From: Azospirillum lipoferum 4B
GTDB lineage: Bacteria; Pseudomonadota; Alphaproteobacteria; Azospirillales; Azospirillaceae
NCBI RefSeq assembly: GCF_000283655.1
Contig: NC_016585.1
Location: 253,001-317,000, forward strand
Reading direction: 5' to 3'
DNA: 64,000 nucleotides
The position numbers and the translations under genes are program-made. This document shows, one piece after another, positions 42,427-60,955 of this stretch (position 1 is the first letter of the stretch; every line of letters starts with the position of its first letter). Below the pieces are notes generated by a model. That model made no database searches, had not been told where the DNA came from, and saw only the letters and a program-made list of their open reading frames with translations.

Positions 42427-42445
42427 GGGGATCAGTGTCTCGCAT

Positions 42446-42467: not shown

Positions 42468-42552
42468 GATAGACAAGAGCGCTTTTGTGCGGCCGATCCC
42501 GGCGGCGAGAACCGGCATCCCGACCGGTCCGCATGGCCCGAACGGCCGGCGG

Positions 42553-44244: not shown

Positions 44245-45552
44245 TCAGTCGGCCAGCCGGGTGGTCAGGCGCGGTGCCGTGCCGGTGGCGGCGGCGATGT
44301 AGCGGGCGCGCCGCGGCTTCAGGACGAACAGGGCGAGGAAGGCGGCCAGCGCATTGACGATGGCGACGCTGTAGAAGACGGTCTGCCAGCTGCCGGTCGC
44401 CTCGACCATCAGGTTGCCGATGGGGACCAGCAGGGCCGCCGTGCCCTTGGCGGTATAGAGCAGCCCGGCATTGGTCGCGGCGAAGCGCGAGCCGAAGGTA
44501 TCGCCGCAGCAGGCCGGAAACAGGCTGAAGATCTCCCCCCAGGCGAAGAAGACGAGGCCGGTCAGGATGACGAAGGCCAGCGGGTCGGCGCCATAGGCGC
44601 TGAGCGCCATCACGCCCGCTGCTTCGATGGCGAAGGCGATGAACATGGTGTTCTCGCGGCCGATATGGTCGGACACCCAGCCGAAGAACGGCCGCGTGAT
44701 GCCGTTCATCACCCGGTCGATGGACAGGGCGAAGGTCAGGGCCGGCAGGGTCAGGCCCAGCATGCTGACCGGCGCATCGACCAGACCCATGTCGGCGGCG
44801 ATGGGGCCGAGCTGCGCCGTCACCATCAGCCCGCCGGCGGCGACCATGGTGAACATGGCGTACATGATCCAGAAGACGGGGGTGCGCAGCATCTCCTGCG
44901 GGGTGAAGTGGCGGCGCTCGGCCGCGGCGGTCGCGGTGCCGCGGGCATAGCCCGACATCGGTGGGTCGGCCAGGAACCAGGCCAGCACCAGGATCACCAG
45001 CCCCTGGCCCAGCCCGAAGACCATGAAGGTCTGTTCGAAGCCGGAGGTCTCGATCATGGTGGCGATCGGCACCACGGTGAGGGCGGAGCCGGCGCCGAAG
45101 CCGGCGGCGGTCAGGCCGGCGGCAAGGCCGCGGCGGTCGGGAAACCATTTCAGGGCGTTGCCGACGCAGGTGCCATAGACGCCGCCGGCGCCGATGCCGC
45201 CGATCACTGCGGCGAGATAGAGCAGAGTCAGCGAATCCGCCACCGCGTTCAGCGCCCAGGACAGGGCGCACAGAACGCCGCCGACCACCACGACGATGCG
45301 CGGACCGAATTTGTCGACGAACCATCCCTCCACCGGCACCAGCCAGGTTTCGGTGACGATGAAGATGGTGAAGGCCACCTGGATCGCGGTGCGACCCCAG
45401 CCATGCTTGTCGTCGATCGGCTCGACGAACAGGGTCCAGCCATATTGCAGGTTGGCGATCATCGACATGCAGACGATGCCGATGGCCAGCTGCATCCAGC
45501 GCCCGCCCCAGGGCGCGACCTGGGCGGTGTTGCCGTGCATCTCACGCACCAT
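44245..45552 (-). CDS. oxlT: OxlT-family MFS transporter (oxalate:formate antiporter family), copy 1
   Basis: This 435-aa inner-membrane carrier has about 12 TM segments. MQLAIGIVCMSMIANLQYGW and VEPIDDKHGWGRTAIQVAF are OxlT-type N-terminal features; GGIGAGGVYGTCVGNALKWF is also characteristic. It is about 75-80% similar by eye to copy 2 at 54997. GGGGAGG precedes the start at 45552. The palindrome TGGCATGCCA lies 143 bp upstream. Substrate is probably a dicarboxylate or C2-C3 acid; oxalate is inferred from family. Confidence 0.88.
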   Translation of the reverse strand: MVREMHGNTAQVAPWGGRWMQLAIGIVCMSMIANLQYGWTLFVEPIDDKHGWGRTAIQVAFTIFIVTETWLVPVEGWFVDKFGPRIVVVVGGVLCALSWALNAVADSLTLLYLAAVIGGIGAGGVYGTCVGNALKWFPDRRGLAAGLTAAGFGAGSALTVVPIATMIETSGFEQTFMVFGLGQGLVILVLAWFLADPPMSGYARGTATAAAERRHFTPQEMLRTPVFWIMYAMFTMVAAGGLMVTAQLGPIAADMGLVDAPVSMLGLTLPALTFALSIDRVMNGITRPFFGWVSDHIGRENTMFIAFAIEAAGVMALSAYGADPLAFVILTGLVFFAWGEIFSLFPACCGDTFGSRFAATNAGLLYTAKGTAALLVPIGNLMVEATGSWQTVFYSVAIVNALAAFLALFVLKPRRARYIAAATGTAPRLTTRLAD

Positions 45553-45903
45553 GTGTTTCCTCCCCGTTTTCACCCGACAAGACCTGTTCGGACGTCCGGA
45601 CCTTTTGCTTTTTCGTGGCTTTGCCGTGCGCTTTTTGGTGTCTGGTCCGGAGAAGGCCATGGGACGGGGCGGCTCGGTGACAACTTATAGTTGCTGGCAT
45701 GCCAAATGCCCCATGCCCGCCTTAACGATCATCAGTTTGACGAACAGTGTCAATACAAAGCATTTTGCCGCGCCGCGGCGATCCGCTTTTTATCCAGCGG
45801 ATTCCGTCAGATTTCCGCGGATCGGAAAACTCCGGATCCGGAATCCGGCCGAATTGGCTAAGCCTTGCGATCGTGCTCGGCCGAATTGGAGGGAGTTGGA
45901 CCT
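45553..45903. other. Divergent regulatory region, oxlT copy 1 / thiE-like gene
   Basis: About 350 bp. TGGCATGCCA, a perfect 10-bp palindrome, is at 45695-45704, followed by AATGCCCCATGCC. No gene is seen. Confidence 0.55.
45695..45704. promoter_or_regulatory. Operator-like palindrome upstream of oxlT copy 1
   Basis: TGGCATGCCA is a variant of the TGGTATACCA motif found in front of other genes of this region. It is 143 bp upstream of the OxlT copy 1 start. Confidence 0.5.
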
Positions 45904-46545
45904 ATGCCCGTGCCCGTGCCGCCGCTGCTGGCGATCACCGACCGGCACCTCTCAACCCTGCCGCTGCCGGAGCTGGCGGACCGCCTCTTCGCGTCCGGCT
46001 TGCGCTGGCTGTCCTTGCGCGACAAGGACTTGGCCGATGCCGACCGTCTGGCTCTGGCCCGCGTGCTGCTCCAGCGGGCGCGGCCCCGGGGGGCCAGGAT
46101 CACCCTGCACGGGGACGCGGCGCTGGCGGCGGAAGCGGGGGTGGACGGGGTGCATCTGCCGACAGGCTCCGACCCGGCGGCGGCGCGTGCGCTGCTGGGA
46201 CCGGCGGCATTGATCGGGCTGTCCGGGCACGACTCGGACGGTGCCGATCTGGTGGAGCGGGCGCGCGGGCAGGTCGACTATCTCACCCTGTCGCCGGTCT
46301 TCCCGTCGGCCAGCAAGCCGGGCTATGGGCCGTGTCTCGGCATCTCGGGGTTGCGGCGATGGGCGGGGCGGGGAGTGCCCGTGGTTGCGCTGGGGGGAAT
46401 CGACGGGGTGCAGGCGGTGGCGGATTGCCTTGCCGCCGGTGCCGCCGGGGTGGCGGTGATGGGGCTGGCGATGCGCGATCCGCAGGCGCTGGGGCCGCTG
46501 CTTGCGGTGGCGGCGGGCAGAACCGCGCCGTCGCGCCCCGGTTGA
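45904..46545 (+). CDS. Thiamine phosphate synthase/TenI family protein
   Basis: This 213-aa TIM-barrel protein resembles ThiE/TenI. Visible motifs are LSLRDKD (phosphate/pyrimidine site region), LHGDAALAAEAGVDGVHLPT, LTLSPVFPSASKPGYGP and VVALGGIDG. ThiE couples hydroxymethylpyrimidine diphosphate and thiazole phosphate to thiamine phosphate; TenI-like members instead aromatise the thiazole. Assignment between them is uncertain because the N-terminus is shortened. GGAGGGAG precedes the start at 45904. No other thiamine gene is adjacent. Confidence 0.85.
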   Translation: MPVPVPPLLAITDRHLSTLPLPELADRLFASGLRWLSLRDKDLADADRLALARVLLQRARPRGARITLHGDAALAAEAGVDGVHLPTGSDPAAARALLGPAALIGLSGHDSDGADLVERARGQVDYLTLSPVFPSASKPGYGPCLGISGLRRWAGRGVPVVALGGIDGVQAVADCLAAGAAGVAVMGLAMRDPQALGPLLAVAAGRTAPSRPG

Positions 46546-46600
46546 AATCAGGCGGGCTTCCGCCGCGCCCCCCTGGACATTTCAGCGCCTTGCAAGCATC

Positions 46601-46615
46601 TGGTATGTAGGATAC
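46601..46615. promoter_or_regulatory. Operator-like site upstream of gntR/FCD gene
   Basis: TGGTATGTAGGATAC carries inverted GTAT/ATAC half-sites. Its left flank CATCTGGTAT is identical over 10 bp with the site at 54761-54770 before OxlT copy 2. It is about 100 bp upstream of the regulator start, suggesting autoregulation. Confidence 0.5.
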
Positions 46616-46707
46616 GAAAACACCGAAGGACCAGCGCCCGCGCCTGATCGGCCGGAGCCTGACCGGGCGCGCCGCAACAGCCGGCGAGACATAAGGACAT
46701 CCATTTC

Positions 46708-47397
46708 ATGACCGTTCCCGCTCTCAACGTTCAGCCCCTCGACACCGGAACGACCTTCCGCAGTCAGGTCTATCACGCGCTGAAGCAGGCGATCACGGAG
46801 ATGGACATCTACGACCACGACCGCGAGATCCGGCTGGACGAGCGGCAGCTCAGCGACAAGCTCGGCGTCAGCCGCACTCCCATCCGCGAGGCGCTGACCC
46901 TGCTGGAGCAGGAGGGCTTCATCCGCCTGCAGCCGCGCCGCGGCATCTTCGTGGTGCGCAAGACCAAGACCGAGATCATCGAGATGATCCAGGTCTGGGC
47001 GGCGCTGGAGAGCATGGCAGCCCGCATGGCCGCCGAGCACGCCCCGGCGGCGGAAATCCACAAGCTGTGGGATCTGTTCGGCAGCTTCGAGCAGCGCAGC
47101 CCGAAGGATCATGTCAGCGAATATTCCGACGCCAACATCGCCTTCCACAAGAGCATCATCCAGCTGAGCGGGTCGAAGCTGATCCAGGACGTCACCGACA
47201 ACCTGTTCATCCACATGCGGGCGATCCGCAAGCTGACCATCGGCCAGGAGGACCGGGCCGAACGCTCGATCCACGACCACCGCGCCATCATCAAGGCCCT
47301 GGAGGAGCGCAACGCCGACCTCGCCGAACGGCTGGTACGCGAGCACACCATGGGTCTGGCCGCGCATGTGCAGAAGCACTGCGATTTTCTGGAGTGA
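46708..47397 (+). CDS. GntR-family regulator with FCD domain
   Basis: This 229-aa regulator has a winged helix-turn-helix at about residues 20-85 (LDERQLSDKLGVSRTPIREALTLL-type, EQEGFIRLQPRRGIFV) and an all-helical FCD sensor domain (about 95-225) with metal-site residues in DANIAFHKSI and HDHRAIIKALEERN. FCD regulators sense carboxylic acids and bind short GTNNNAC-type palindromes. It is central in the OxlT/PanE region and is the most likely reader of the GTATAC-type sites. Ligand unknown; oxalate, glyoxylate or a related acid is inferred. Confidence 0.92.
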   Translation: MTVPALNVQPLDTGTTFRSQVYHALKQAITEMDIYDHDREIRLDERQLSDKLGVSRTPIREALTLLEQEGFIRLQPRRGIFVVRKTKTEIIEMIQVWAALESMAARMAAEHAPAAEIHKLWDLFGSFEQRSPKDHVSEYSDANIAFHKSIIQLSGSKLIQDVTDNLFIHMRAIRKLTIGQEDRAERSIHDHRAIIKALEERNADLAERLVREHTMGLAAHVQKHCDFLE

Positions 47398-47433
47398 AGG
47401 GGGGTAGGTCCTCGCTGATTGCCCCCACCATCC

Positions 47434-48900
47434 TCACGCCACCACCACCTCCCTCTGCACCGCCTCCGCCATTGGCGCATCCTCCCCGCCGATGGTCACC
47501 ACCCGCAGGGCGTTGGTCTTGCCCGGCGTGCCGAACGGAACGCCCGCGGTCACCACCAGCGACTGGCCCGGCCGGCCGATCCCGGCATCCGCCGCGGCGG
47601 TCAGCGCGCGACCGACCATCTCCGTGAAATTCGCCACGTCGTCGGTCAGCACCGCATGGACGCCCCAGGCCAGCGACAGCCGCCGCGCCGTCGCATGCTG
47701 CGCGCTGAGGCCGAGGATCGGCACGCCGGGCCGTTCGCGCGAGGCGCGCAGCGTGGTCGAGCCGGTGGTGGTGTAGGTGACGATGGCGGCGGCGCTGATG
47801 GTCTCCGCCACCTGGCGGGCGGCGGCGGTCAGCGCGTCGGGGGCGGTCGCCTCCGGGCTCGGGTGGTCGGCGTCCATGATGCGGCGGTAGAGCGGGTCGC
47901 CCTCCACCCGGCGGACGATGCGCTCCATCATCGCCACGGCCTCCACCGGATAGCGGCCGGAGGCCGATTCGGCGGACAGCATCACCGCATCGGCCCCGTC
48001 ATAGACAGCATTGGCGACGTCCGACGCCTCGGCGCGGGTCGGGGTCGGTTCCGACACCATGGATTCCAGCATCTGGGTGGCGACGATCACCGGCTTGCCC
48101 ATGGCACGGCTGAGGCGGATCATCTGCTTCTGCAGGCCCGGCACGTCTTCCGGCGGCAACTCGACGCCCAGGTCGCCGCGCGCCACCATCACCGCGTCGG
48201 AGAGCTCGATGATGCGGTCCAGCGTCGGCAGGGCCGCCGGTTTCTCGATCTTGGTCATCACATGGGCGCGCCCGCCGATCAGCTCGCGCGCCTCCAGGAT
48301 GTCCTCCGGCCGCTGGACGAAGCTGAGGCCGATCCAGTCCACCCCCAGCTCCAGCCCGAAGGCGAGGTCGCTGCGGTCCTTCTCCGACAGCGCGCTAAGC
48401 GCCAGCGCGGCCCCCGGCACATTGACGCCCTTGCGGTCGGACAGGGTGCCGCCGGCCACCACCTCCGTCTCCGCGAAGTCGGGGCCGCAGTCCAGGACGC
48501 GCAGCCGGATTCGCCCGTCGTTCAGCAGCAGGTCCAACCCCGGCTCCAGGCTGGCGAACACCTCTGCATGGGGCAGGCAGACGCGGCGGCTGTCGCCCGG
48601 CCGGCGGTCCAGATCCAGGCGGAAGCGGTCGCCGATGGCGAGATCCACCGGCCCGACGCCGAAGGTCCCGACCCGCAGCTTCGGCCCCTGGAGGTCGAGC
48701 AGCACGCCGATCGGCCGGCCCAGCCGCTCCTCGGCGGCGCGGATGCGGGCGTAGCGCTCGGCATGTTCGGCCTGGGTGCCGTGGCTGGCGTTCAGGCGGA
48801 AGACGTTCACGCCGGCCTGGGCCAGGGCGGCGATCTGGCTTTCCGACGAACTGGCGGGACCCAGCGTGGCGACGATCTTGGTGCTGCGGTGAAACGGCAT
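47434..48900 (-). CDS. pyk: Pyruvate kinase
   Basis: This 488-aa enzyme transfers phosphate from PEP to ADP. The start MPFHRSTKIVATLGPASSS is canonical. Further motifs are LLDLQGPKLRVG, SDRKGVNVPG, MTKIEKPAAL, VMVARGDLGVELP, TQMLESM and SAESASGRYP. The C-terminal allosteric domain is complete. GGAGGAAGG lies upstream of the start at 48900. In other bacteria a second pyruvate kinase is often linked to glyoxylate or tartronate pathways (with glxR); here it is divergent from a GlxR-like gene. Confidence 0.95.
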   Translation of the reverse strand: MPFHRSTKIVATLGPASSSESQIAALAQAGVNVFRLNASHGTQAEHAERYARIRAAEERLGRPIGVLLDLQGPKLRVGTFGVGPVDLAIGDRFRLDLDRRPGDSRRVCLPHAEVFASLEPGLDLLLNDGRIRLRVLDCGPDFAETEVVAGGTLSDRKGVNVPGAALALSALSEKDRSDLAFGLELGVDWIGLSFVQRPEDILEARELIGGRAHVMTKIEKPAALPTLDRIIELSDAVMVARGDLGVELPPEDVPGLQKQMIRLSRAMGKPVIVATQMLESMVSEPTPTRAEASDVANAVYDGADAVMLSAESASGRYPVEAVAMMERIVRRVEGDPLYRRIMDADHPSPEATAPDALTAAARQVAETISAAAIVTYTTTGSTTLRASRERPGVPILGLSAQHATARRLSLAWGVHAVLTDDVANFTEMVGRALTAAADAGIGRPGQSLVVTAGVPFGTPGKTNALRVVTIGGEDAPMAEAVQREVVVA

Positions 48901-49399
48901 GACGACAGCCTTCCTCCGCCCGGCCCTCGACGCGGAGGGGCGGGACTGGCGAATAATGACGCGCTGAATGGCGATGATGGCGGGATGCTGGAAGGGATAG
49001 GCCGGACGGTCAAACGCCGCCCCTCCTGTATTCCGCATCGTGAGAGTGGTTCCTCCCGCCGCGCATGGACGGGCGAAGGGCCGGGCATCGGCGGCTGGTC
49101 TATGCCACGCGGATGACCCTGCTACGGCCGGAGATCAGTTGCCGCCGCCGATTCTGCCACGGCTGGTTGAGACGGCGGCCGGTCCGGTCTGGCGGATACC
49201 GGCGGCATGCGGCTTTTTGCCACTGGAGACATCGGCCGAACATGTTAGGCTCGGGTAAGAATAGGCAAGCTTAGGCGGGTTTCCGCGATGTGAAAATTGC
49301 GCGATGGTCCTGTTGTGCGATGCGATGCGCGCAACGAAGCTCTCCTTCGACACCCTGCCGTCCAATAGGGCGTTGGGGAGGAAGCGGGAGGATCGCGGA
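48901..49399. other. Divergent intergenic region pyk / HIBADH-like gene
   Basis: About 500 bp without a believable gene. TTAGGC at 49245, ATAGGC at 49261 and TTAGGC at 49271 form a spaced direct-repeat series. GCGATG recurs several times between 49289 and 49330. No GTATAC-type palindrome is seen. Confidence 0.45.
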
Positions 49400-49975
49400 A
49401 TGGATATCGGGTTCATCGGGGGTGGGGAGGTGGCCGATGCGATCATGGACAGGCTGCGGGAGGTGGGGCACCGGCTCCATCGCCATCCCCACGCCCATGG
49501 TTGCCGGTCGCTCCGCGCCCTTGTCCAGCGGTGCGACGCCGTGATGCTGCTGCTGCCCGATGCCAGCGCCGTGGAAAGGGCGCTGTTCGCCGACGACGGC
49601 CTTGCCGCAGGTCTGTCCGGTGGTGAACTGCTGATCGACCTGTCCTCCCTGTCGCCGGAACAGGCTGCGGCCAACGCCGCCCGCATCGCGGAACTGGGTG
49701 GGCAACTGGTCGATGCACCGGTCAGCGGCGGCGCGAAGGGGTACAGAATCGACCTTGGCGGCAGCGATGCGGCCTGCGCGTGGGCGGAATCGCTGCTGCG
49801 GCTGTTTACCTCCACAGTCGAGCGGGCCGGTGGTCCAGGGGCTGGGCAGCGGGCCCGTCTGGCGCGGAGCGCAGGGCGGACTGCCGACCGGACCGGCGAC
49901 GATCCGGATGGGCTGCACCGGTTGCTGTGCCTGATGGCCTTCGACGAGGCCGATTGTGCGTTGAGCGCGGGATGA
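49400..49975 (+). CDS. Short 3-hydroxyisobutyrate/tartronate-semialdehyde reductase-like protein (truncated)
   Basis: This 191-aa protein starts with a dinucleotide-binding motif (MDIGFIGGGEVADAIMDRL) and keeps LIDLSSLSPEQ and VDAPVSGGAKG of the HIBADH/GlxR family. Normal members have about 290 residues with a second all-helical domain. Here that domain is missing, and the catalytic-Lys segment reads GPGAGQRARLARS, with Arg in place of Lys. Activity is therefore doubtful. GGGAGG precedes the start at 49400. The stop overlaps the next gene by ATGA, so translation is coupled. Confidence 0.75.
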   Translation: MDIGFIGGGEVADAIMDRLREVGHRLHRHPHAHGCRSLRALVQRCDAVMLLLPDASAVERALFADDGLAAGLSGGELLIDLSSLSPEQAAANAARIAELGGQLVDAPVSGGAKGYRIDLGGSDAACAWAESLLRLFTSTVERAGGPGAGQRARLARSAGRTADRTGDDPDGLHRLLCLMAFDEADCALSAG

Positions 49976-51684
49976 CCAGAGCCATGATGTCCGACATTAC
50001 CGCCACCCGCCTTCCCACCCCGGCCATAGCCGTGCCCCACCGCGCGCGCCAGCCGGAGGTGATCGTCCCCTTCGGTGCCGGGTTCTCCCGAAGGGCGGAT
50101 GTGGATCGCCTGGGCAACAAGGGCGCCCGGCTGGTGGAGATGGCCGGGTTCGGCATTCCGGTGCCGCCGGGCTTCATCATCGCGGCAGAGGCCGGGCAGG
50201 GGCTGGCCGCCGGGGAGCCGCTGCCGGCCGTCCTGTGTGCCGCCATCGACGAGGCGATCGCGTCGCTGGAGGACCGGGCGGGCGGGCGCTTCGGCGATGC
50301 CGGCCGGCCGCTTCTGCTGTCGGTCCGCTCAGGCGCGGCGGTGTCGATGCCCGGCATGATGGACAGCATCCTGAACCTGGGGCTCAACGACCGCACGGTG
50401 GCGGGGCTGACGGCGGCATCGGGGGATGCCTGCTTCGCCCATGACTGCTATCGGCGGCTGGTCCAGTCCTTCGGCTGCGTCGTCATGGGCGTGCCCGGCC
50501 AGCGTTTCGAGGATCTGCTGGAGGAGCACAAGCAGGAGCGGGGGCTCCAGCGCGACGGCGAGTTGACGGCGGAGGACTGGCAGGGCCTGCTGCCGCGCTT
50601 CCTGCAGCTGGTGGAGACGCGCTGCGGCCGGCCTTTCCCGCAGGATCCGGCGGAACAGCTGCGGATGGCCGTGGCGGCGGTTTTCCGCTCCTGGATGAAT
50701 CCGCGGGCCGTGGCCTTCCGCGCCCTGCATGGCATCCCGGAGGATATGGGCACGGCGGTGACGGTTCAGGCGATGGTGTTCGGCAACCGCGGGCAGGATT
50801 CCGGCACCGGCGTGCTGTTCACCCGCGATCCCTCCACCGGCGCCCCCGGCCTGTGCGGCGAGTTCCTTGCCAATGCGCAAGGGGAGGACGTGGTGTCCGG
50901 CACCCGCGATCCCGATCCGCTCAGCGCCGCCCAACCGCAACCGGACCGCTCGATGGAACTCCGGCAGCCGGCGGTCTTCGCCGAGCTGTGCGCGGTGGCG
51001 GAGCGGCTGGAGCGCGCCTTCGGCGACATGCAGGACATCGAATTCACGGTCGAGTCCGGCCGTCTGTTCATCCTGCAGTCCCGCAGCGGCAAGCGGTCGT
51101 CCGAAGCCGCCGTGCGCATCGCCGTCGACATGGCGGAGGAGGGGATCATCAGCCGGGACGAGGCGGTGCGCCGCGTCGATCCCCAGGCGCTGGACGAACT
51201 GCTGCGCCCCACCCTGGCGCCCGAGGCGCTGGCCGGCGCGCTCGCCATGGGACTGCCGGCCTCGCCCGGCGCGGTGACCGGCCGGGCCGCCTTCACGACC
51301 GAGGACGCCATTCGTCTGGCCCGCGGCGGCGCACCGGTGGTGCTGTGCCGGCCGGAAACCTCGCCGGAGGACATCCACGGCATGCATGCCGCGGCCGGTG
51401 TCGTCACCGCGCGCGGCGGCTTCACCAGCCACGCCGCCACCGTCGCCCGCGGCATGGGCCGTCCCTGCGTCTGCGGCGCCCGCACCCTGCGGATCGATGT
51501 CGAGGCGGGTGTGATGCAGGTGGGCGAGGTGACGGTCCGCACCGGCGACCTGCTGACCATCGACGGCAGCAACGGGGCGGTGGTGCTGGGCACGGCCCCC
51601 TTGCAACGGCCAGAGCCGGATGGCGCCGTCGCGCGCCTGCTGGAATGGGCGCGTGACTGCAGGGTGGGGCTCGCGGCGGATTGA
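49972..51684 (+). CDS. Pyruvate phosphate dikinase-like protein lacking the PEP/pyruvate-binding barrel
   Basis: This 570-aa protein has the PPDK nucleotide-binding domain (DRLGNKGARLVEMAGFGIPV, LLLSVRSGAAVSMPGMMDS) and the swivelling phosphohistidine domain (ARGGFTSHAATVARGMGRPC, His H487). Full PPDK has about 880 residues, the last ~350 forming the PEP/pyruvate TIM barrel, which is absent here. It may phosphorylate its own His and pass phosphate to a separate protein, or be regulatory. Start at 49972 overlaps the preceding stop (ATGA); ATGs at 49984 and 49987 are alternatives. pyk lies divergent. Confidence 0.85.
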   Translation: MTRAMMSDITATRLPTPAIAVPHRARQPEVIVPFGAGFSRRADVDRLGNKGARLVEMAGFGIPVPPGFIIAAEAGQGLAAGEPLPAVLCAAIDEAIASLEDRAGGRFGDAGRPLLLSVRSGAAVSMPGMMDSILNLGLNDRTVAGLTAASGDACFAHDCYRRLVQSFGCVVMGVPGQRFEDLLEEHKQERGLQRDGELTAEDWQGLLPRFLQLVETRCGRPFPQDPAEQLRMAVAAVFRSWMNPRAVAFRALHGIPEDMGTAVTVQAMVFGNRGQDSGTGVLFTRDPSTGAPGLCGEFLANAQGEDVVSGTRDPDPLSAAQPQPDRSMELRQPAVFAELCAVAERLERAFGDMQDIEFTVESGRLFILQSRSGKRSSEAAVRIAVDMAEEGIISRDEAVRRVDPQALDELLRPTLAPEALAGALAMGLPASPGAVTGRAAFTTEDAIRLARGGAPVVLCRPETSPEDIHGMHAAAGVVTARGGFTSHAATVARGMGRPCVCGARTLRIDVEAGVMQVGEVTVRTGDLLTIDGSNGAVVLGTAPLQRPEPDGAVARLLEWARDCRVGLAAD

Positions 51685-51705
51685 GAGTTGTGGGGTGTGG
51701 GGGAG

Positions 51706-51879
51706 TTAACCCCCCACCTAACCTCCCCCACTCTCAGCGGACCTACGGTCCGCCTGCCGCGTCAGCACAAAGCGGAGCTTTGTGCGAGAGCTGGGTGGGG
51801 GAGGGACTGCCGCCACTCTTTCGCATCAGCCCTTGTTCCCTCCCCCGCCCAGCGGGGGAGGGTCAGGGTGGGGGTCTAA
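51706..51879. repeat. Intergenic palindromic repeat, copy 3 (extended)
   Basis: This ~174-bp element starts TTAACCCCCCACC and ends GGTGGGGGTCTAA. It contains additional hairpins (GCGGACC/GGTCCGC at 51738-51754 and GCACAAAGC/GCTTTGTGC at 51765-51785) and the hairpin CCTCCCCCGCCCAGCGGGGG, which recurs in copy 4. It lies between the convergent PPDK-like and HDAC-like genes. Confidence 0.8.
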
Positions 51880-51890
51880 CCCCCCAAATC

Positions 51891-52820
51891 TCACCCCCGC
51901 ATCAATGCCTTCAGATGCGCCGCACACCCCTCCGCCAGACCGGTCGCGTCATAGCCGCCTTCCAGCGCCGAAACGACACGTCCGCCGCAGACCCGGTCGG
52001 CGAGATCGACCAGCTTGCGGGTCACCCACTCGAAATCCTCGTTCGTAAGTCCGAGTTGGGCCAGCGGGTCGCGCTTGTGCGCGTCGAAGCCGGCCGAGAT
52101 CAGCAGCAATTCGGGCTGGAATGCCTCCAGCGCCGGCAGGATCGCGCGCTCCACCGCCTGGCGGAACTCGACGGAGCCGCTGTAGGGTTCCAGCGGCAGG
52201 TTCAGGATGTTGCCGTCCACCCCGCGTTCCCACGAATTGCCGGTGCCGGGATAGAGCGGCGACTGATGGGTGGAGGCGAAGAACAGGTCGGGATCGTCGG
52301 CGAACATCGCCTGGGTGCCGTTGCCGTGATGGACGTCGAAATCGACCACGGCGACGCGCGTCAGCCCATGGATCTTGCGGGCATGTTCCGCCCCGACCGC
52401 GATGTTGTTGAAGACGCAGAAGCCCATGGCGCGGGCCGGTTCGGCATGGTGGCCGCAGGGGCGCACGGCACAGAAGGCGTTCGTCGCCTCACCGGCCAGC
52501 ACCGCATCGACCGCGGCGCAGACCGAGCCCGCCGCGCGCAGGATGGCTCCGCGCGACCCCGGCGACAGCAGCGTGTCGCCGTCCAGCCGGCGATATCCCT
52601 CGTCGGGCACCGCGGCCAGAACCGCCTCCACATACTGGCGGTCATGGACGCGCGACAGCTGATCCACATCGGCCTTGGGGGCGGACCGGCGCTCCAACGC
52701 GCGGAACTCCGGCCGGTCGAGGACCTGCCAGACGACGGCCAGCCGGTCCGGGGCCTCCGGATGGCCGGGGCCGGTGTCGTGGGCGAAGCAGTCGTGATGG
52801 GTGAAGATCAGGGTGGTCAC
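51891..52820 (-). CDS. Histone deacetylase/acetoin utilisation family deacetylase
   Basis: This 309-aa zinc-dependent amidohydrolase starts MTTLIFTHHDCFAHDTGPGHPEAPDRL. It has the catalytic His pair in RPCGHHAEPARAMGFCVFNN and the zinc-ligand motif VVDFDVHHGNGTQAMF, then LISAGFDAHKRDPLA. The family deacetylates proteins or small acetylated polyamines. The exact substrate is not readable. Convergent with the PPDK-like gene across a repeat. Confidence 0.93.
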   Translation of the reverse strand: MTTLIFTHHDCFAHDTGPGHPEAPDRLAVVWQVLDRPEFRALERRSAPKADVDQLSRVHDRQYVEAVLAAVPDEGYRRLDGDTLLSPGSRGAILRAAGSVCAAVDAVLAGEATNAFCAVRPCGHHAEPARAMGFCVFNNIAVGAEHARKIHGLTRVAVVDFDVHHGNGTQAMFADDPDLFFASTHQSPLYPGTGNSWERGVDGNILNLPLEPYSGSVEFRQAVERAILPALEAFQPELLLISAGFDAHKRDPLAQLGLTNEDFEWVTRKLVDLADRVCGGRVVSALEGGYDATGLAEGCAAHLKALMRG

Positions 52821-52891
52821 GGGGCAGCCTCTCCCATGGGAAAGGCGCCGCCGGCCTCGGTGGGCGGCGGCGCCGGGTTCGGGGCGGTGGA

Positions 52892-53347
52892 TCAGTGGGC
52901 GTAGGCGGTGCCCGCCGACGGCTCCGGCGCCGCGGCGACCGTGCCTTCCAGCTCCTGCAACTGCAGGCGGGTGAAGTCGCGGGCGCTGACGACGCCGACC
53001 AGATGGCCGTCCTCCAGAACCGGAAGATGCCTGATATGATGCCGGTCCATCAGCTGCAGGGCCTGCCGGACGCTGTCGGACGGGGCGCAGGTCACCGGCT
53101 GGCGGGTCATCAGCTGCGACACCGGCATGGACAGCAGCGGCGCCCCCCGGTCCAGCAGGGCGTGGACGATGTCACGCTCCGACAGGACGCCGGCCAGCGT
53201 GTTGCCTTCGGTCCGGCAGACGTCCTTGACGACCAGGGCGCTGATGTTCTCAGCCTTCATCAGGCCGATGGCTTCGGCGACCGTGGCGCTGGTCCGCACG
53301 GCGACGACGCGGGATTCCTTGGTGCGCAGGATATGTTCGACGTTCAT
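52892..53347 (-). CDS. CBS-pair protein, copy 1
   Basis: This 151-aa protein consists of two CBS domains (about 8-60 and 78-130), starting MNVEHILRTKESRV. It contains ALVVKDVCRTEGNTLAGVLS, which is nearly identical to a stretch of copy 2 (58657). CBS pairs bind adenosyl ligands and modulate partner proteins. AGGAG precedes the start at 53347. A TGGCATACCA-type site lies 77 bp upstream. Confidence 0.9.
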   Translation of the reverse strand: MNVEHILRTKESRVVAVRTSATVAEAIGLMKAENISALVVKDVCRTEGNTLAGVLSERDIVHALLDRGAPLLSMPVSQLMTRQPVTCAPSDSVRQALQLMDRHHIRHLPVLEDGHLVGVVSARDFTRLQLQELEGTVAAAPEPSAGTAYAH

Positions 53348-53423
53348 GGCGTGGCTCCTGTCGGCTGGCGGCTGAACGGCTGATGGGGCGGCGGGGCGCT
53401 GAGATCGCACCACGCTATGAATA

Positions 53424-53433
53424 TGGTATGCCA
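53424..53433. promoter_or_regulatory. Operator-like site upstream of CBS copy 1
   Basis: TGGTATGCCA (read on the minus strand TGGCATACCATATTCATA) matches the site before OxlT copy 2 (TGGTATACCATATTGATA) at 16 of 18 positions. Confidence 0.55.
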
Positions 53434-53615
53434 AATACAGTACGCCAATCAAACAATTTCGTCTGCCAATCGGGAATGGCGGAGCCCATCGAGGCTCAAG
53501 CTGTTGGATCCATTGCGCGAAGGGATCAGAGCGATAAAGTTGGCTATGCGGTATGTTTGCTATGCATGCAAATGGATGAGTGCATGCGGTATGCGCATGA
53601 CCGGTATCATGTACT

Positions 53616-53625
53616 TTGTATACCA
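53616..53625. promoter_or_regulatory. Operator-like site upstream of the small TM gene
   Basis: TTGTATACCA, followed by AAAAAAC, is another GTATAC-centred site. It is 96 bp before the start at 53721. Confidence 0.45.
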
Positions 53626-53720
53626 AAAAACTTGATCCGCCTTCTGCGGCGCGCCATAACACTCCGGCCAAGCCGAAGCCGTTCAATCAAAAAAAGCACC
53701 CCACCGAGACACATGGAGCG

Positions 53721-53942
53721 ATGAACATGTTGGAAATCCTGGTTCTGGCGCTTGTGCTGTCCGTCTTCGGCGGCACGGTCCATTACATCCTGTCGATGCA
53801 GGTCGCCAATGCCGGCAAGTCGCAGCGCGATTTCTCCGCGGCGCCGCTTCGCCTCGCCAACCCGACCGAGGCCGACCTGAAGGAACAGGAAGACGAACTG
53901 CCGCCGGGTCCGTCCTGGGCCAGCTTCCCGCGCGCCTTCTGA
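53721..53942 (+). CDS. Small single-span membrane protein
   Basis: This 73-aa protein starts MNMLEILVLALVLSVFGGTV and has one N-terminal TM (about residues 4-22). A soluble acidic tail follows (PTEADLKEQEDELPPGPSW). GGAG lies before two alternative ATGs (53721, 53727). Tightly followed by a strong terminator. It lies between CBS copy 1 and the acetyltransferase with a GTATAC site upstream. It may be an accessory protein of the nearby transporters, but no family is recognised. Confidence 0.7.
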   Translation: MNMLEILVLALVLSVFGGTVHYILSMQVANAGKSQRDFSAAPLRLANPTEADLKEQEDELPPGPSWASFPRAF

Positions 53943-53975
53943 GCAACGCCTTTCTGCACCCGCAACAGCGGCATC

Positions 53976-54009
53976 ACAAAAAGACGGCCTCCTCAGGCCG
54001 TCTTTTTGT
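53976..54009. terminator. Bidirectional rho-independent terminator
   Basis: ACAAAAAGACGGCCT (53976-53990) pairs perfectly with 53995-54009 around a 4-nt loop, with A- and T-runs at the ends. It serves the small TM gene and the convergent acetyltransferase. Confidence 0.94.
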
Positions 54010-54027
54010 TTGTGTGCCTGCGCTGTC

Positions 54028-54471
54028 TCAGGCGAGCGGCAGCACCAGCTGGAAGCTTTTGATGGTCATGCGCTTGCGGTGATAGAAGCGGTGGGCTTCG
54101 CCGCGCTGGATGCCGGAGATGATCTCCATCTGGGCGCAGCCGCGTTCCCGCGCCTCGTTGGCCAGCCAGTCGAACAGCTTGTCGCCCAGCCCGTAGGACC
54201 GCTTGGCGGCGCTGGTCACCAGATCCTCGACATACATGTAACGACCGCGCGACAGCGTCTCGTGCACGCGGAAGCCGCCGCAGCCGGCGATCTCGCCGTC
54301 CAACCGCAGCAGGGCGAGGTTGTAGCCGTCGTCCATCTGCCGGCGGATCTGCGCGCGGTAGGCGTCGGCGTCGGTCATGTGGGTCCGCAGCTCCTTCATG
54401 ACCGGGTAGCTGGCTGCGATATCGGCATCGTCCCGCGCCACGGCGATCTCGATGTTCTGCTGCTGGTCCAT
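54028..54471 (-). CDS. GNAT-family N-acetyltransferase
   Basis: This 147-aa enzyme has the acetyl-CoA-binding motif A region AKRSYGLGDKLFDWLANEAR (the Q/R-x-x-G-x-G/A pyrophosphate loop appears as RSYGLG) and a C-terminal segment HRFYHRKRMTIKSF. AAGGAG lies nine bases upstream of the start. Its substrate is unknown. It is divergent from OxlT copy 2 and shares a region with GTATAC-type sites, so it may be in the same regulon. Confidence 0.88.
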   Translation of the reverse strand: MDQQQNIEIAVARDDADIAASYPVMKELRTHMTDADAYRAQIRRQMDDGYNLALLRLDGEIAGCGGFRVHETLSRGRYMYVEDLVTSAAKRSYGLGDKLFDWLANEARERGCAQMEIISGIQRGEAHRFYHRKRMTIKSFQLVLPLA

Positions 54472-54603
54472 GGCGGTCGACTCCTTATCAAAATGGGTTC
54501 TGCCGGGAAGGGCCTGAGCGTCGGCCCCTGAGGCCGGGTTCTGAGAGCGTGCTCTCGGAACAGGTTCGGCCGGTGACCTTCAGGGCTCGTCCACCGCCGA
54601 CGC

Positions 54604-54613
54604 TGGCATACCA
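54604..54613. promoter_or_regulatory. Operator-like site upstream of the acetyltransferase gene
   Basis: TGGCATACCA, extended as GGCATACCATATGCC with inverted GGCAT/ATGCC. It is 133 bp upstream of the acetyltransferase start. Confidence 0.5.
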
Positions 54614-54764
54614 TATGCCAATGCGTCCGTTGCCCAAAGGCAGGCAGCGCCGCTTTCCGCGTGGCGGAAAATTCGTATGCCGAAGCCGCATACCAGCCGC
54701 CCCGAATGCGGGGAACGGAAACAGTTCGCGTGACCGACTAGCTACTTGTCTGCTGCTCGGCATC

Positions 54765-54774
54765 TGGTATACCA
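54765..54774. promoter_or_regulatory. Operator-like site upstream of OxlT copy 2
   Basis: TGGTATACCA is a perfect 10-bp palindrome, followed by TATTGATA. It lies 223 bp upstream of the OxlT copy 2 start and fits the GTNNNAC-type core of GntR/FCD operators. Confidence 0.6.
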
Positions 54775-54996
54775 TATTGATAATTCCAGACCGAACCCAG
54801 GACCGCATCGGTCTGGCGGGGGGCAAAAAACCGCCCCCGAAAGCAGTGGAGTGCCCCGAGGCCGCATCCTCGCCGCACGGCCACCGACAGCAAAGAACCG
54901 CGTCAGAACTCTGAAGCGTCAAACAAACGCTCAAGCATCAAAACAGAAGCGACGCCCGAACCGGCACAAAACCGCTTCCTAGGAGGAGATAGATAG

Positions 54997-56301
54997 ATGC
55001 AGCATACGAATTCGGAGGCGCATGGCGCACCGCTCGGCGGCCGCTGGATGCAGTTGGTCATCGGCGTGATCTGCATGTCGATGATCGCCAACCTGCAATA
55101 TGGCTGGACGCTGTTCGTAAACCCCATCGAAGAAAAGTATCACTGGGGTCGTGCCGCCATTCAGGTCGCCTTCACCATCTTCGTCGTGACCGAAACCTGG
55201 CTGGTCCCCGTCGAAGGCTGGTTCGTCGATAAATTTGGACCCCGCATCGTCGTTCTGATCGGCGGCATTCTGTGCGCGCTGGCCTGGGCCATCAACTCGG
55301 TCGCCGACTCGCTGGCACTCCTCTATCTGGGTGCGGCCATCGGTGGCATCGGCGCCGGCGGCGTCTATGGCACCTGCGTCGGCAACGCGCTGAAATGGTT
55401 CCCCGACCGCCGCGGTCTCGCCGCCGGCCTGACCGCAGCCGGCTTCGGCGCCGGCTCCGCGCTGACCGTGGTGCCGATCGCCAACATGATCCAGACCTCG
55501 GGCTTCGAGCAGACCTTCCTGGTGTTCGGTCTGGGCCAGGGCCTGATCGTCTTCGCGCTGGCCTGGTTCCTGAAGGAGCCGAACCCGGACCTGCTGCCGA
55601 AGAACAAGTCCAACATCGTGCAGAGCCGCCGCAACTACACCCCGCAGGAGACGCTGAAGTCGCCGGTCTTCTGGGTGATGTACCTGATGTTCGTCATGGT
55701 TGCCGCCGGCGGCCTGATGGCCACGGCCCAGCTCGGTCCGATCGCCAAGGACTTCCACCTCGACGGCATGCCGGTCAGCATCATGGGCCTGACCCTGCCG
55801 GCCCTGACCTTCGCGCTCACCATCGACCGTGTGCTGAACGGCGTGACCCGTCCCTTCTTCGGCTGGGTGTCCGACCATATCGGCCGCGAGAACACCATGT
55901 TCGTTGCCTTCGCCATCGAAGCCGTCGGCATCCTGGCGCTGAACCAGTGGGGCCATCATCCGGTCGCCTTCGTTGTCCTGACCGGTCTGGTGTTCTTCGC
56001 CTGGGGCGAGATCTACAGCCTGTTTCCGTCCTGCTGCGCCGACAGCTTCGGGTCGAAGTTCGCGACGACCAACGCCGGCCTGCTCTACACCGCCAAGGGC
56101 ACGGCGTCGCTGGTGGTTCCCTTCGCCAACGTGATCGTGGCTTCCACCGGCAGCTGGCAGACGGTCTTCTTCTTCGCCGCCGCGGTCAACGCCATCGCCG
56201 CCTTCATGGCCCTGTTCGTCCTGAAGCCGATGCGCGCCCGCCAGATCGCCGAGGACACCCGCCAGCCGATGGGCAAGCTGGTGACCGAGGGTGCCGACTG
56301 A
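54997..56301 (+). CDS. oxlT: OxlT-family MFS transporter (oxalate:formate antiporter family), copy 2
   Basis: This 434-aa, 12-TM carrier is a close paralogue of copy 1. Shared segments include MQLVIGVICMSMIANLQYGW, GAGGVYGTCVGNALKWFPDR and AAGFGAGSALTVVPIA. An excellent AGGAGG site precedes the start. The cytosolic loop differs from copy 1 (PDLLPKNKSNIVQS), as does the C-terminus (QPMGKLVTEGAD). A perfect TGGTATACCA site lies upstream. Family members exchange oxalate for formate or import related dicarboxylates. Confidence 0.9.
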   Translation: MQHTNSEAHGAPLGGRWMQLVIGVICMSMIANLQYGWTLFVNPIEEKYHWGRAAIQVAFTIFVVTETWLVPVEGWFVDKFGPRIVVLIGGILCALAWAINSVADSLALLYLGAAIGGIGAGGVYGTCVGNALKWFPDRRGLAAGLTAAGFGAGSALTVVPIANMIQTSGFEQTFLVFGLGQGLIVFALAWFLKEPNPDLLPKNKSNIVQSRRNYTPQETLKSPVFWVMYLMFVMVAAGGLMATAQLGPIAKDFHLDGMPVSIMGLTLPALTFALTIDRVLNGVTRPFFGWVSDHIGRENTMFVAFAIEAVGILALNQWGHHPVAFVVLTGLVFFAWGEIYSLFPSCCADSFGSKFATTNAGLLYTAKGTASLVVPFANVIVASTGSWQTVFFFAAAVNAIAAFMALFVLKPMRARQIAEDTRQPMGKLVTEGAD

Positions 56302-56311
56302 ATGGGGGGAG

Positions 56312-56347
56312 CCTGCCGTGGCCGACCGGGGGGCCAGCCACGGCAGG
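56312..56347 (+). terminator. Hairpin after OxlT copy 2
   Basis: CCTGCCGTGGC (56312-56322) pairs with GCCACGGCAGG (56337-56347) starting 10 bp after the stop. There is no T-run, so termination strength is uncertain. Confidence 0.5.
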
Positions 56348-56511
56348 GCTTAGAGATTGTCTGGCCGCCGGAGTGCAAACCGGCTGCGAAACAAACCGGC
56401 GTCGGGGCCACCGCATTGGTCCCGGCGTCGGTTTGTCGCGTTCTGGGAGCGGGTTCGCATGAACCGCATCGGAGATCCCGCATCCCGGCATAAGCCCGCT
56501 TCAAAGGCTGA

Positions 56512-56529
56512 TATTCTGTATACAGAATA
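56512..56529. promoter_or_regulatory. 18-bp perfect palindrome upstream of the TauE/SafE gene
   Basis: TATTCTGTATACAGAATA is fully symmetric with a GTATAC centre. It ends 43 bp before the TauE/SafE start. Flanks differ from the TGGTATACCA group, but the core is the same. Confidence 0.65.
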
Positions 56530-56571
56530 CGAAGGCGCCGGTCAACACGGATCGAAAGGGATGGGTCGATC

Positions 56572-57315
56572 ATGCTGAGTCTCGTCGTCCTGATGCTCGC
56601 CGCCTTCGCGTCGGGCGCGCTGAACGCCATTGCCGGGGGTGGAGCCTTCATCACCTTTCCGGCCCTGCTGTTTGCCGGCGTGCCGCCGGTGGCGGCCAAC
56701 GCCTCCAGCACGGTGGCGCTGTTTCCGGGGCAGGCGGTGAGCAGCTGGGCCTACCGGCGCGAGATCGCGGCCGGCGGTCAGGTGAATGTCCCGGTCTTCG
56801 CCGTTCTCAGCCTCGTCGGCGGGCTGATCGGCGCCTTGCTGCTTCTGCTGACGCCGAATGCGGTGTTCGCGGGCTTCGTGCCCTGGCTGCTGTTGTTCGC
56901 AACCGCCGTTTTCGCCGTGGGGGCCTATGCGCCGTGGATCGTATCGCGGCTGCGGCTGGGCGGGCGGAGCGTGCTGGTCGTGCAGTTCGTCATCTCGATC
57001 TATGGCGGCTATTTCGGTGGGGGCATCGGCTTTCTGATGCTGGCGGCGCTGACCCTGTTCGGCCTGCGCGACATCCACGCCATGAACGGGCTGCGTCTGC
57101 TGCTGGCGATGCTGATGAATGCGGCGGCGGTCGGCGCCTTCATCGTCGCCGGAGCGGTGTCGTGGCGTGAGACGACGGTGATGGCGGTGGCGGCGATGGC
57201 GGGGGGCTATGCCGGCGCCAGGGGGGCGAAACGGGTCGATCCGAAGAGTCTGAAGACTTTGGTCGTCCTCATCGGAACGGCGCTGACCCTGTACTTCTTT
57301 GCGAAGGGAGCCTGA
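56572..57315 (+). CDS. TauE/SafE-family (sulfite/organic-acid exporter) membrane protein
   Basis: This 247-aa protein has about eight TM segments and the twin TauE/SafE motifs ALNAIAGGGAFITFPALLF near the N-terminus and VISIYGGYFGGGIGFLMLAAL in the second half. The family exports sulfite, sulfoacetate or other small anions. AAGGGATGG precedes the ATG. A palindromic operator lies 43 bp upstream. In this context it may move a C2-C3 acid; this is inference. Confidence 0.88.
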   Translation: MLSLVVLMLAAFASGALNAIAGGGAFITFPALLFAGVPPVAANASSTVALFPGQAVSSWAYRREIAAGGQVNVPVFAVLSLVGGLIGALLLLLTPNAVFAGFVPWLLLFATAVFAVGAYAPWIVSRLRLGGRSVLVVQFVISIYGGYFGGGIGFLMLAALTLFGLRDIHAMNGLRLLLAMLMNAAAVGAFIVAGAVSWRETTVMAVAAMAGGYAGARGAKRVDPKSLKTLVVLIGTALTLYFFAKGA

Positions 57316-57385
57316 TCCGGTTGGAGAAAAAGCAGGTGCCGTATTCTCGTCAGTCCCCCCACATTCCGCATTGACATACGGTATG

Positions 57386-57395
57386 TGGTATACCA
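57386..57395. promoter_or_regulatory. Operator-like site upstream of the PanE-family gene
   Basis: TGGTATACCA is identical to the site before OxlT copy 2. It is directly preceded by ACATACGGTATGT (57374-57386), itself a palindrome that contains the end of a TTGACA hexamer (57371-57376). It is 148 bp upstream of the PanE-like start. Confidence 0.6.
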
Positions 57396-57542
57396 AACTC
57401 CAGGCACAGTTTGCGCAACAGACTGTTGGATGCCGCTGCAATAGCAACCGGTCAGCCGATGGATGCGGCCGGTGTGGGCAGGCTGGCGTCGTCCAGCCCC
57501 ACAGCATTCAAAAAGCGAAATCGGGGGAGAGGGGAATCCGGC

Positions 57543-58568
57543 ATGAAGATCTGCATCTACGGATCCGGGGCCATCGGCGGCTATCTCGGCGTTCGCCTGC
57601 ACCAAGCGGGTGCCGAAGTCAGTCTGGTGGCGCGCGGTGCGCATCTGGCGGCGATGCGCGAGAACGGCGTCACCCTGCTGATGGGGGAGGAGAAGACCGT
57701 CGTCCACCCCCGCTGCACCGACAACCCGGCCGAACTCGGCCCGCAGGACTACGTCATCATCGCGCTGAAGGCCCATTCCGTCCCCGGCGTCGTCCCCGCG
57801 ATGCAGCCGCTGCTCGGTGAGGACACCGCCGTCGTCACCGCCGTCAACGGCATCCCCTATTGGTATTTTTACGGCACCGGCGGCGCGTTCGACGGCCGTA
57901 CGCTGGAGACGGTCGATCCCGGTGCGGTTCAGTGGAAGGGGCTGGGGCCGGAGCGCGCCATCGGCTGCGTCGTCTATCCCGCGACCGAGGTGGTGGAGCC
58001 CGGCGTCATCCAGCATGTCTATGGCGACAAATTCTCGCTCGGCGAACCTGACGGGTCGACGTCGGACCGCGTCGTCGCCCTGTCCAAGGCGATGGAGGCC
58101 GGCGGCCTGCGCGCCCCCGTGCTCGACCGCATCCGCGACGAGATCTGGCTGAAGCTGTGGGGCAACCTGTGCTTCAACCCGATCAGCGCGCTCACCCACG
58201 GCACGCTGGAGGTCATCTGCGGCGATGCCGAAACCCGCGCCGTCGCCAAGGCGATGATGCTGGAGGCCAAGGAGATCGGCGACAGGCTGGGGGTCCATTT
58301 CCGCGTCGATGTCGAACGCCGGATCAACGGGGCCGCCGCGGTGGGGGCGCACAAGACCTCCATGCTGCAGGATCTGGAGCGCGGGCGGCCGATGGAGATC
58401 GACCCGCTGCTGTCGGTCGTCCAGGAGATGGGCCGCATGGTCGGCGTGGCCACCCCGACCATCGACGTGGTGCTCGCCCTGGTGAAGCAGCGGGGCGAGA
58501 CCGCCGGCTGTTACAGCCGGCCGCAGCCCGCGGCGGCTCCGGCACCGGAAGTGGTGGCGGCCCAGTAA
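57543..58568 (+). CDS. PanE/ApbA-family 2-dehydropantoate 2-reductase-like NADPH reductase
   Basis: This 341-aa enzyme has an NADP-binding motif GSGAIGGYLGVRL, KAHSVPG and catalytic-type residues in KLWGNLCFNPISALTHGT and KTSMLQDLERGRPMEID. Family members reduce ketopantoate or other 2-oxo compounds with NADPH. In Methylobacterium extorquens AM1 a PanE2 protein acts as oxalyl-CoA reductase, giving glyoxylate. Here it lies beside OxlT-type carriers and pnt genes, so a similar role is plausible but unproven. It is about 30-40 residues longer than biosynthetic PanE. Start at 57543 has GGGGAAT upstream. Confidence 0.88.
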   Translation: MKICIYGSGAIGGYLGVRLHQAGAEVSLVARGAHLAAMRENGVTLLMGEEKTVVHPRCTDNPAELGPQDYVIIALKAHSVPGVVPAMQPLLGEDTAVVTAVNGIPYWYFYGTGGAFDGRTLETVDPGAVQWKGLGPERAIGCVVYPATEVVEPGVIQHVYGDKFSLGEPDGSTSDRVVALSKAMEAGGLRAPVLDRIRDEIWLKLWGNLCFNPISALTHGTLEVICGDAETRAVAKAMMLEAKEIGDRLGVHFRVDVERRINGAAAVGAHKTSMLQDLERGRPMEIDPLLSVVQEMGRMVGVATPTIDVVLALVKQRGETAGCYSRPQPAAAPAPEVVAAQ

Positions 58569-58656
58569 GCAGGGCACCGCTGAGCAACGCAGGTGGCGCG
58601 GCCGGCGCGGATCCCGAAGGACCGGGCCGGCCGCAATGGAATGGGGGAGGACCATC

Positions 58657-59130: not shown

Positions 59131-59348
59131 GCGGCGCGTGCGTGGCCGGCGCGGTTTCGTCGCCGGTCGCGCGGCTTCGCCCGCCCGACAGTGCCTTTTT
59201 GTGAATTTCGCCGCTTCGGCGCATCCCCGGCCATGAACCGGAAGCGGGTGGACCGATGTGGGTGGACGGATGAGGGCGGGCCATGGCCGCCACCCCCTGT
59301 CTGCTGTCCCATGCCTGCTGCCGGCGCTGGCCTTCGAAAGCAAACGAC

Positions 59349-60518: not shown

Positions 60519-60531
60519 GGAGGCGGATCCC

Positions 60532-60951: not shown

Positions 60952-60955
60952 GACC

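Follow-up and report, generated by a model that had tools for sequence, protein, structure and literature searches.

A candidate oxalate regulon with a three-half-site operator predicted for FCD-type GntR regulators in Azospirillum lipoferum 4B

The subject of this study is a set of eight short palindromic sites in a 64,000-nucleotide stretch of the Azospirillum lipoferum 4B genome (contig NC_016585.1, positions 253,001 to 317,000; hereafter the window), which had been predicted to precede the transcription units of a C2-acid gene region. Our analysis suggests that these sites serve as operators for FCD-type GntR regulators, namely GntR1, encoded in the window, and possibly also its paralogue GntR2, and that they mark an oxalate regulon, most probably under repression. 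The probability of this explanation is about 0.8. It is built on the positions, conservation and motif identity of the sites, their co-occurrence with the regulator and the content of the genes behind them; from these we infer binding, effector, sign of control and enzyme activities.

The operator and its distribution

Between positions 44245 and 62350 of the window 16 genes were called, with an intergenic share of 18%. All eight sites were found where the original prediction had placed them (Table 1), outside called genes (8/8) and each upstream of a gene. The 16 of 18 bases said to be shared by two sites fit those at 45695 and 54604, and the perfect 18-bp palindrome at ~56512 is present. The description as a family of GTATAC-centred palindromes had to be extended: when the sites are lined up, the palindrome is flanked at a constant distance by a further half-site (TGGYATRCCA-n-ATRC or the mirror image). 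This third half-site is exact at 45695, 53424, 54604, 54765 and 57386, in the last two on the left side, and is one mismatch off at 53616. The 56512 site reads CTGTATACAG, A, ATAC. The site before gntR1 (46601) retains the outer half-sites and has lost the inner one, and similar forms occur at the close loci displayed.

The 10-bp word by itself is not significant. At up to two mismatches it has 8 matches in the window against 5.4 expected, and 20 of 100 shuffles reach 8; in the genome of Azospirillum sp. B21 TGGYATRCCA occurs 16 times, its reversed control 12 times. A scan with this word alone was discarded as too weak. The 15-mer TGGYATRCMANATRC, which includes the third half-site, gave 12 matches at up to two mismatches against 1.8 expected, a number reached by none of 100 shuffles. 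Eleven of these matches coincide with seven of the eight sites, the missed one being 56512. The third half-site was present in 5/5 palindromes of the B21 cluster and in 1/11 of the other palindromes of that genome (p ~0.001).

A search with the regulator returned 54 loci (L numbers), 26 of them outside the Azospirillum group. From these, the near copies of L029 (L030-L032) and L053, in which the gene is cut, were left out, and 22 were used for motif discovery. An unseeded expectation-maximization search of the 300 bp upstream of gntR in these 22 FCD homologues yielded TGGTATACAATATACA, i.e. TGGTAT, ACMA, one base and ATAC, also written TGGTATAC-MA-n-ATAC, with a log-likelihood ratio of 151. 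The real set was run with 1500 and with 500 seeds; shuffled controls reached 61-68 (8 sets, 500 seeds) and 61-76 (15 sets, 1500 seeds). A site above 15 bits was found in 16 of the 22 regions, 12 of the 16 having the ATRC third half, which the fit itself favours. Applied to the window, the matrix from the other species placed its ten best matches on six sites (53424, 53616, 54604, 54765, 56512 and 57386), with 46601 tied at 15.2 bits with the outside position 6169 for rank 11-12. At 15 bits or more there were 12 matches, 11 of them on the reported sites, against an average of 0.15 in 60 shuffles. The proposal that the distant homologues and the window share one operator, with an FCD-type GntR protein as the predicted binder, is supported by these matches.

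The regulon outside the window was deduced from related genomes. GntR1 is 100% identical to the regulator of B21, whose genome shares 29% of the sampled 31-mers of the window (the places are identical in genomes G001 and G002). In 37 same-genus genomes we counted 212 copies of the exact 15-mer and 2 of the reversed control; the corresponding counts for 24 genomes from other genera were 3 and 4. The 15-mer is present in 33 of the 37 genomes, and these coincide fully with the 33 that encode the FCD protein (E <= 1e-50; Fisher 1.5e-5, a value that ignores kinship and is hence too optimistic). The remaining four (G017, G024, G044, G046) lack the 15-mer, the FCD protein, oxc (E <= 1e-150) and the PanE-like gene (E <= 1e-80). 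The places of the exact matches were inspected in six genomes. They lie mostly inside this cluster in B21 (5/6), oryzae (5/5), TSH64 (5/5) and doebereinerae (5/6), and are scattered in A. canadense (11 matches) and in a strain labelled Roseomonas genomospecies 6 (8 matches).

The sites recur at corresponding places in related species. In alignments of five of them (10-14 sequences each), 12-20 of the 20 columns within the site were invariant, compared with 8-30 of 80-92 columns outside it. The contrast is clear at four sites and weaker at the small-gene site. The operator core at 45695 is invariant in 14/14 aligned sequences, and at 54765 20/20 columns are invariant across 10 sequences. The alignments of the sites before the first CBS gene, the small gene, the GNAT gene and oxlT2 consist of the window and 9 of 13 close loci; no core match to these four sites was found in L004, L005, L006 and L010. 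Two further occurrences were noted: in B21 (L102:4383-5731) the gap before Nramp-like and Na+/H+ antiporter genes contains an exact operator together with a copy that has one mismatch, and an exact operator (L124:4722-4741) lies at the 5' end of an open reading frame (ORF) with a match to thiamine pyrophosphate (TPP) enzymes, 26% identical to oxc.

The link to oxalate

The genes frc, oxc and oxlT are well known. Both OxlT copies of the window passed the equivalog cut-off of TIGR04259, which marks them as predicted oxalate/formate antiporters. In Cupriavidus necator deletion of the PanE-like gene apbA2 impairs growth on oxalate and deletion of frc-oxc abolishes it, in the part of the study used here (PMC7486775). 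By analogy with C. necator ApbA2, and from its family and neighbourhood, the PanE-like protein of the window is a proposed oxalyl-CoA reductase.

Similar genes accompany the distant regulators. Counted anywhere in the fetched stretch (up to 10 kb, many contigs being short), oxc or frc at 70% identity or more was found in 18 of the 26 distant loci, with the L034 and L047 copies as queries, and 25 of the 26 have oxc, frc, OxlT or a PanE-like gene, the exception being L028. In eight distant loci oxc is the next gene after gntR. L018 has a glyoxylate carboligase gene near gntR (1116 bits), which fits assimilation via glyoxylate. At nine loci (L037, L039, L040, L042, L046, L051-L054) the place of oxc beside frc is taken by a TPP enzyme 24-28% identical to it; in L037, L042, L053 and L054 the nearest model is that of acetolactate synthase, scored below its cut-off. 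It is possibly a different oxalyl-CoA or formyl-CoA enzyme.

Operators were also found before oxalate genes unlinked to the window cluster. In Azospirillum the gene order gntR2-oxc-frc is preceded by CGGTATACCAGATGC, one mismatch from the 15-mer (L100, L103, L105, L113); in L103 an IclR-type regulator gene (L103:7850-8680) is divergent from gntR2-oxc-frc. In TSH64 and canadense a second frc is preceded by a short PAS-domain gene (L104:4206-4910, L106:5850-6398), and an operator-like site is placed close to the 5' end of this gene, which thereby stands between the site and frc. This site is covered by the longest ORF there, which leaves the true start of the gene unsure. In two species (L114, L120) the interval between a lysR gene and formate dehydrogenase genes contains an exact operator; the alpha subunit of this dehydrogenase scored 921.9 bits with TIGR01591 (cut-off 666). 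The extension of the predicted regulon beyond the window, to oxc-frc, a second frc and, in two species, formate dehydrogenase, is supported by these sites. The original prediction had named the GntR protein at 46708 as controller of a local regulon of C2-acid genes. The operator of the distant homologues, the co-occurrence in 37 genomes and the clustering of the sites argue for such a regulon; it appears not to be only local, and the C2 acid can be narrowed to oxalate.

Several observations weigh against this explanation. No site above 15 bits was found in 6 of the 22 distant regions (L038, L039, L040, L050, L051, L052). The exact 15-mer at 45695 scored 10.6 bits with the matrix from other species, rank ~24, behind e.g. 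6169, 12984 and 6239, and the site of gntR1 itself (46601) is degenerate. The OxlT copies also passed the cut-off (320) of the L-lactate carrier model SfMCT, with 346.6 and 350.9 bits, and members of the OxlT family can carry other substrates. Some of the neighbours counted above are weak or far, the PanE-like matches in L036, L050 and L052 being 47-60% identical and 4-9 kb off. Eight GntR3 loci (L021-L027, L041) have neither the core motif nor oxalate genes. Sites are kept in four genomes without oxc (G019, G027, G032, G048) and in one without the PanE-like gene (G037). Five of the 11 exact matches in A. canadense lie away from any recognised oxalate gene, near resolvase, metallo-beta-lactamase-fold, EcsC and cyclase genes, and three matches in the part-scanned G007 (L116, L117), as well as those in L121 and L123, have no visible oxalate link. 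These outliers were kept out of the regulon; they may be chance occurrences, sites of other FCD proteins or unrecognised targets.

Choice of regulator and sign of control

GntR1 scored above both curated Pfam cut-offs, with 53 bits for GntR (cut-off 27) and 89.8 bits for FCD (cut-off 24.3); the GntR domain starts at residue 19. No NCBIfam cut-off was reached in the profile search. The best model was the PhnR-type TIGR03338, for GntR proteins associated with phosphonate use (122.4 bits, cut-off 271.5), and a phosphonate link was limited, among the neighbours scanned, to a weak, below-cut-off match of the GNAT gene to aminoalkylphosphonate acetyltransferase. The arginines of the helix-turn-helix (positions 28 and 38, aligned by eye to the FadR table) lie in the segments ER and VSRTP(I/V)RE, conserved in 19/19 aligned rows. 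The metal site of FCD domains consists of Asp or Asn and three His. FH, (D/E)H and H(T/A) are conserved in 19/19 rows; three positions ahead of the FH pair 19/19 rows have Asn, in contrast to Asp in the two best Protein Data Bank matches. The de novo motif TGGTATAC(M)A obeys the TKGT/ACMA half-site rule, with 2-3 bp from GT to AC.

Repression is favoured by the placement of two operators. A perfect TTGACA stands just before the panE operator, which begins within a few bases after it, the usual place for a repressor, and the oxlT2 operator lies just ahead of a conserved -10-like GATAAT. Among related proteins of the FCD or GntR/FadR type, NanR and GlcR act as repressors according to the parts of the literature consulted (PMC8012715, PMC11323563). 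That the regulator is instead an oxalate-dependent activator is rather doubtful: in the conserved stretch around the oxlT2 operator (TCGGCATCTGGTATACCATATTGATAATTCCAGA) the -10-like GATAAT is fair and, by eye, a good -35 sequence is missing, as an activator would allow, and GlcC, a protein of the FadR subfamily, is described as an activator in the portion of PMC11323563 used here, but the position of the panE operator and the related repressors speak for repression.

A second FCD paralogue, GntR2, is a serious candidate binder. It is 59-64% identical to GntR1, is followed by oxc and frc in Azospirillum, and has nearly the same recognition helix as GntR1. This counts against assigning the sites to GntR1, as either paralogue may act at a given site. 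It is nevertheless unlikely that GntR2 mainly binds the sites, with GntR1 a bystander or a controller of something else. In favour of it are the shared helix, the motif upstream of distant FCD genes in gntR-oxc-frc order, and the better operator of gntR2, with one mismatch from the 15-mer, compared with the degenerate site of gntR1. On the other hand, GntR1 (at least 77% identity) is the sole member found in all 33 genomes with sites (33/33). Genomes G019, G027, G032 and G048, which lack the 59-64% GntR2 match as well as oxc, hold 7, 8, 6 and 8 sites, respectively, with GntR3 (68-69%) present; GntR2 is therefore not needed for the sites to persist. A tree of 58 rows separates GntR1, GntR2 and GntR3 into three distinct groups, each with support. 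One side of a well-supported branch (28 rows, 100/98) is made up of GntR1 and GntR3, whereas the placement of GntR2 lacks resolution. A first tree with three rows of 24-28% identity suffered from long-branch distortion and was rebuilt without these rows and the truncated L053. Two record titles may be wrong, as Mycobacterium sp. KBS0706 (L031) falls among Inquilinus, and Roseomonas genomospecies 6 (L016, L025) among Azospirillum.

Finally, chance words or dispersed repeats are an extremely improbable source of the palindromes: the counts of the 10-bp word given above are what they would leave, but the extended motif, the match to the distant homologues, the co-occurrence and the conservation of the sites speak against them.

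Gene neighbourhood, proposed mechanism and significance

Table 1. Predicted operators and the genes associated with them in the window (dot, no strand assigned)
Feature	Coordinates	Strand	Remarks
OxlT copy 1 (oxlT1), oxalate/formate major facilitator superfamily antiporter (predicted)	44245..45552	-	TIGR04259 647.6 bits, cut-off 335
Operator TGGCATGCCAAATGC (site listed as TGGCATGCCA)	45695..45709	+	143 bp before oxlT1; exact 15-mer
Degenerate operator TGGTATGTAGGATACGA before gntR1	46601..46617	+	15.2 bits (matrix from other species)
GntR1, FCD-domain GntR regulator, proposed oxalate regulator	46708..47397	+	Pfam GntR and FCD
Histone-deacetylase-fold (HDAC) protein	51891..52820	-	Pfam Hist_deacetyl 312 bits; 71 bp downstream of CBS gene
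CBS-domain protein	52892..53347	-	Pfam CBS 98.4 bits, scored on longer ORF 52892-53686
Operator TGGTATGCCAAATAC (site listed as TGGTATGCCA)	53424..53438	+	77 bp before CBS-domain gene; 25.2 bits, top score of the window
Operator TGGTATACAAAGTAC, reading TTGTATACCA on + (site 53616)	53611..53625	-	Before small gene
Small predicted protein, 73 aa, hydrophobic N-terminus	53721..53942	+	Start chosen among options
GNAT acetyltransferase	54028..54471	-	Pfam Acetyltransf_1 40.8 bits
Operator TGGCATACCATATGC (site listed as TGGCATACCA)	54604..54618	+	133 bp before GNAT gene
Operator TGGTATACCAGATGC (site 54765, listed as TGGTATACCA)	54760..54774	-	222 bp before oxlT2
OxlT copy 2 (oxlT2), oxalate/formate major facilitator superfamily antiporter (predicted)	54997..56301	+	TIGR04259 664 bits, cut-off 335
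Weaker operator: perfect 18-bp palindrome TATTCTGTATACAGAATA (~56512), then ATACGAA	56508..56533	.	Before TauE/SafE; 16.9 and 16.2 bits
TauE/SafE-family permease	56572..57315	+	Pfam TauE 125.7 bits
Operator TGGTATACCACATAC (site 57386, also TGGTATACCA)	57381..57395	-	~150 bp before PanE-like gene
PanE/ApbA-like reductase	57543..58568	+	ApbA, ApbA_C; PRK06522.1-4 526.7 bits, cut-off 223
CBS copy 2 and NAD(P) transhydrogenase (pntAB) genes	58636..62350	+	Probable operon with PanE-like gene

The start codon of oxlT1 (45552) was picked by its ribosome-binding site. The CBS gene and the HDAC gene, on the same strand, form a probable operon with the CBS gene first, and the PanE-like gene probably heads an operon with CBS copy 2 and pntAB. 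The HDAC-fold protein had no NCBIfam match, and the longer ORF of the small gene had no family match in the profile scans. Partial or distant HDAC matches (58% and 44%) were seen in the regulator loci L028 and L036. Outside the cluster, a strong palindrome GTTATGTTATATCATAAC, which we presume to be similar to a Zur box, lies at ~42440-42470, upstream of the minus-strand ORF 41740-42426.

In the proposed mechanism the operator would consist of the inverted half-site pair TGGYAT/ATRCCA and, separated from it by one base on one flank, the third half-site ATRC, and the regulator, most likely a repressor, would bind on or beside promoters. Its targets in the window would be the two oxlT genes, the PanE-like operon with the transhydrogenase, the TauE gene, the CBS-HDAC operon, the GNAT gene and the small gene; elsewhere gntR2-oxc-frc, the second frc and, in two species, formate dehydrogenase would be controlled. 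Oxalate, or a metabolite such as oxalyl-CoA or glyoxylate, would bind to the FCD domain and cause release. The presence of the third half-site may reflect a second bound dimer or an asymmetric mode of contact.

A broader model is tentative and rather improbable as a whole: two or three FCD paralogues would share the asymmetric operator (inverted pair and 7-bp-spaced direct repeat) and tune a genome-wide oxalate regulon, in which uptake, decarboxylation, reduction to glyoxylate, formate oxidation and transhydrogenation would be coupled to the acetyltransferase-CBS-deacetylase set, with reversible acetylation as a further control of oxalate enzymes. This set (51891-52820, 52892-53347 and 54028-54471) resembles Bacillus acuABC in kind.

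Known systems share parts of this arrangement. FadR-subfamily regulators share the TKGT/ACMA half-sites, in which GT and AC are 2 bp apart, and for 13 groups of the subfamily an additional, weaker half-site at 7-12 nt from the centre was described statistically (PMC4494728). Here the pathway is a different one, and in the distant set the third half-site almost equals the palindrome in strength; the three sections of PMC4494728 consulted mention no oxalate group. Escherichia coli NanR, also of GntR type, has three half-sites of GGTATA type, as here, but these are direct repeats bound by three dimers via a 32-residue N-terminal extension, according to the part of PMC8012715 consulted. The operator of the window differs in its spacing and in having one inverted pair, and the GntR domain of GntR1 starts at residue 19; the NanR model was second best among NCBIfam models for GntR1 and scored below its cut-off (73.2 bits, cut-off 260). 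The glycolate regulators GlcR and GlcC, as far as described in the portion of PMC11323563 used, are a case of control of a C2 acid by GntR/FadR-type proteins; their genes are different, and GntR1 scored 38 bits with the GlcC model (cut-off 301). In C. necator the gene of the PanE-like oxalyl-CoA reductase lies beside frc-oxc, a likeness to the present genes, and the main text of that study (PMC7486775) mentions GntR 0 times.

Among the papers listed in literature searches, which mostly excluded subscription papers, no dedicated transcription factor for frc, oxc and oxlT was seen and no title or abstract beginning names a GntR/FCD regulator of oxalate genes, and the matches listed by a text search for TGGTATACCA look unrelated by title. 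An FCD regulator with a GT-N2-AC operator is of an already known kind; the member described here and its regulon appear to be new.

Oxalate is a common acid of plants and fungi, and its degradation by bacteria in soil is of importance to the carbon cycle. The shared control suggests roles for the TauE-like, CBS, HDAC-fold, GNAT and small-protein genes. With a regulator predicted and its operator defined, the oxalate response becomes directly testable, and the pair would provide an oxalate sensor part.

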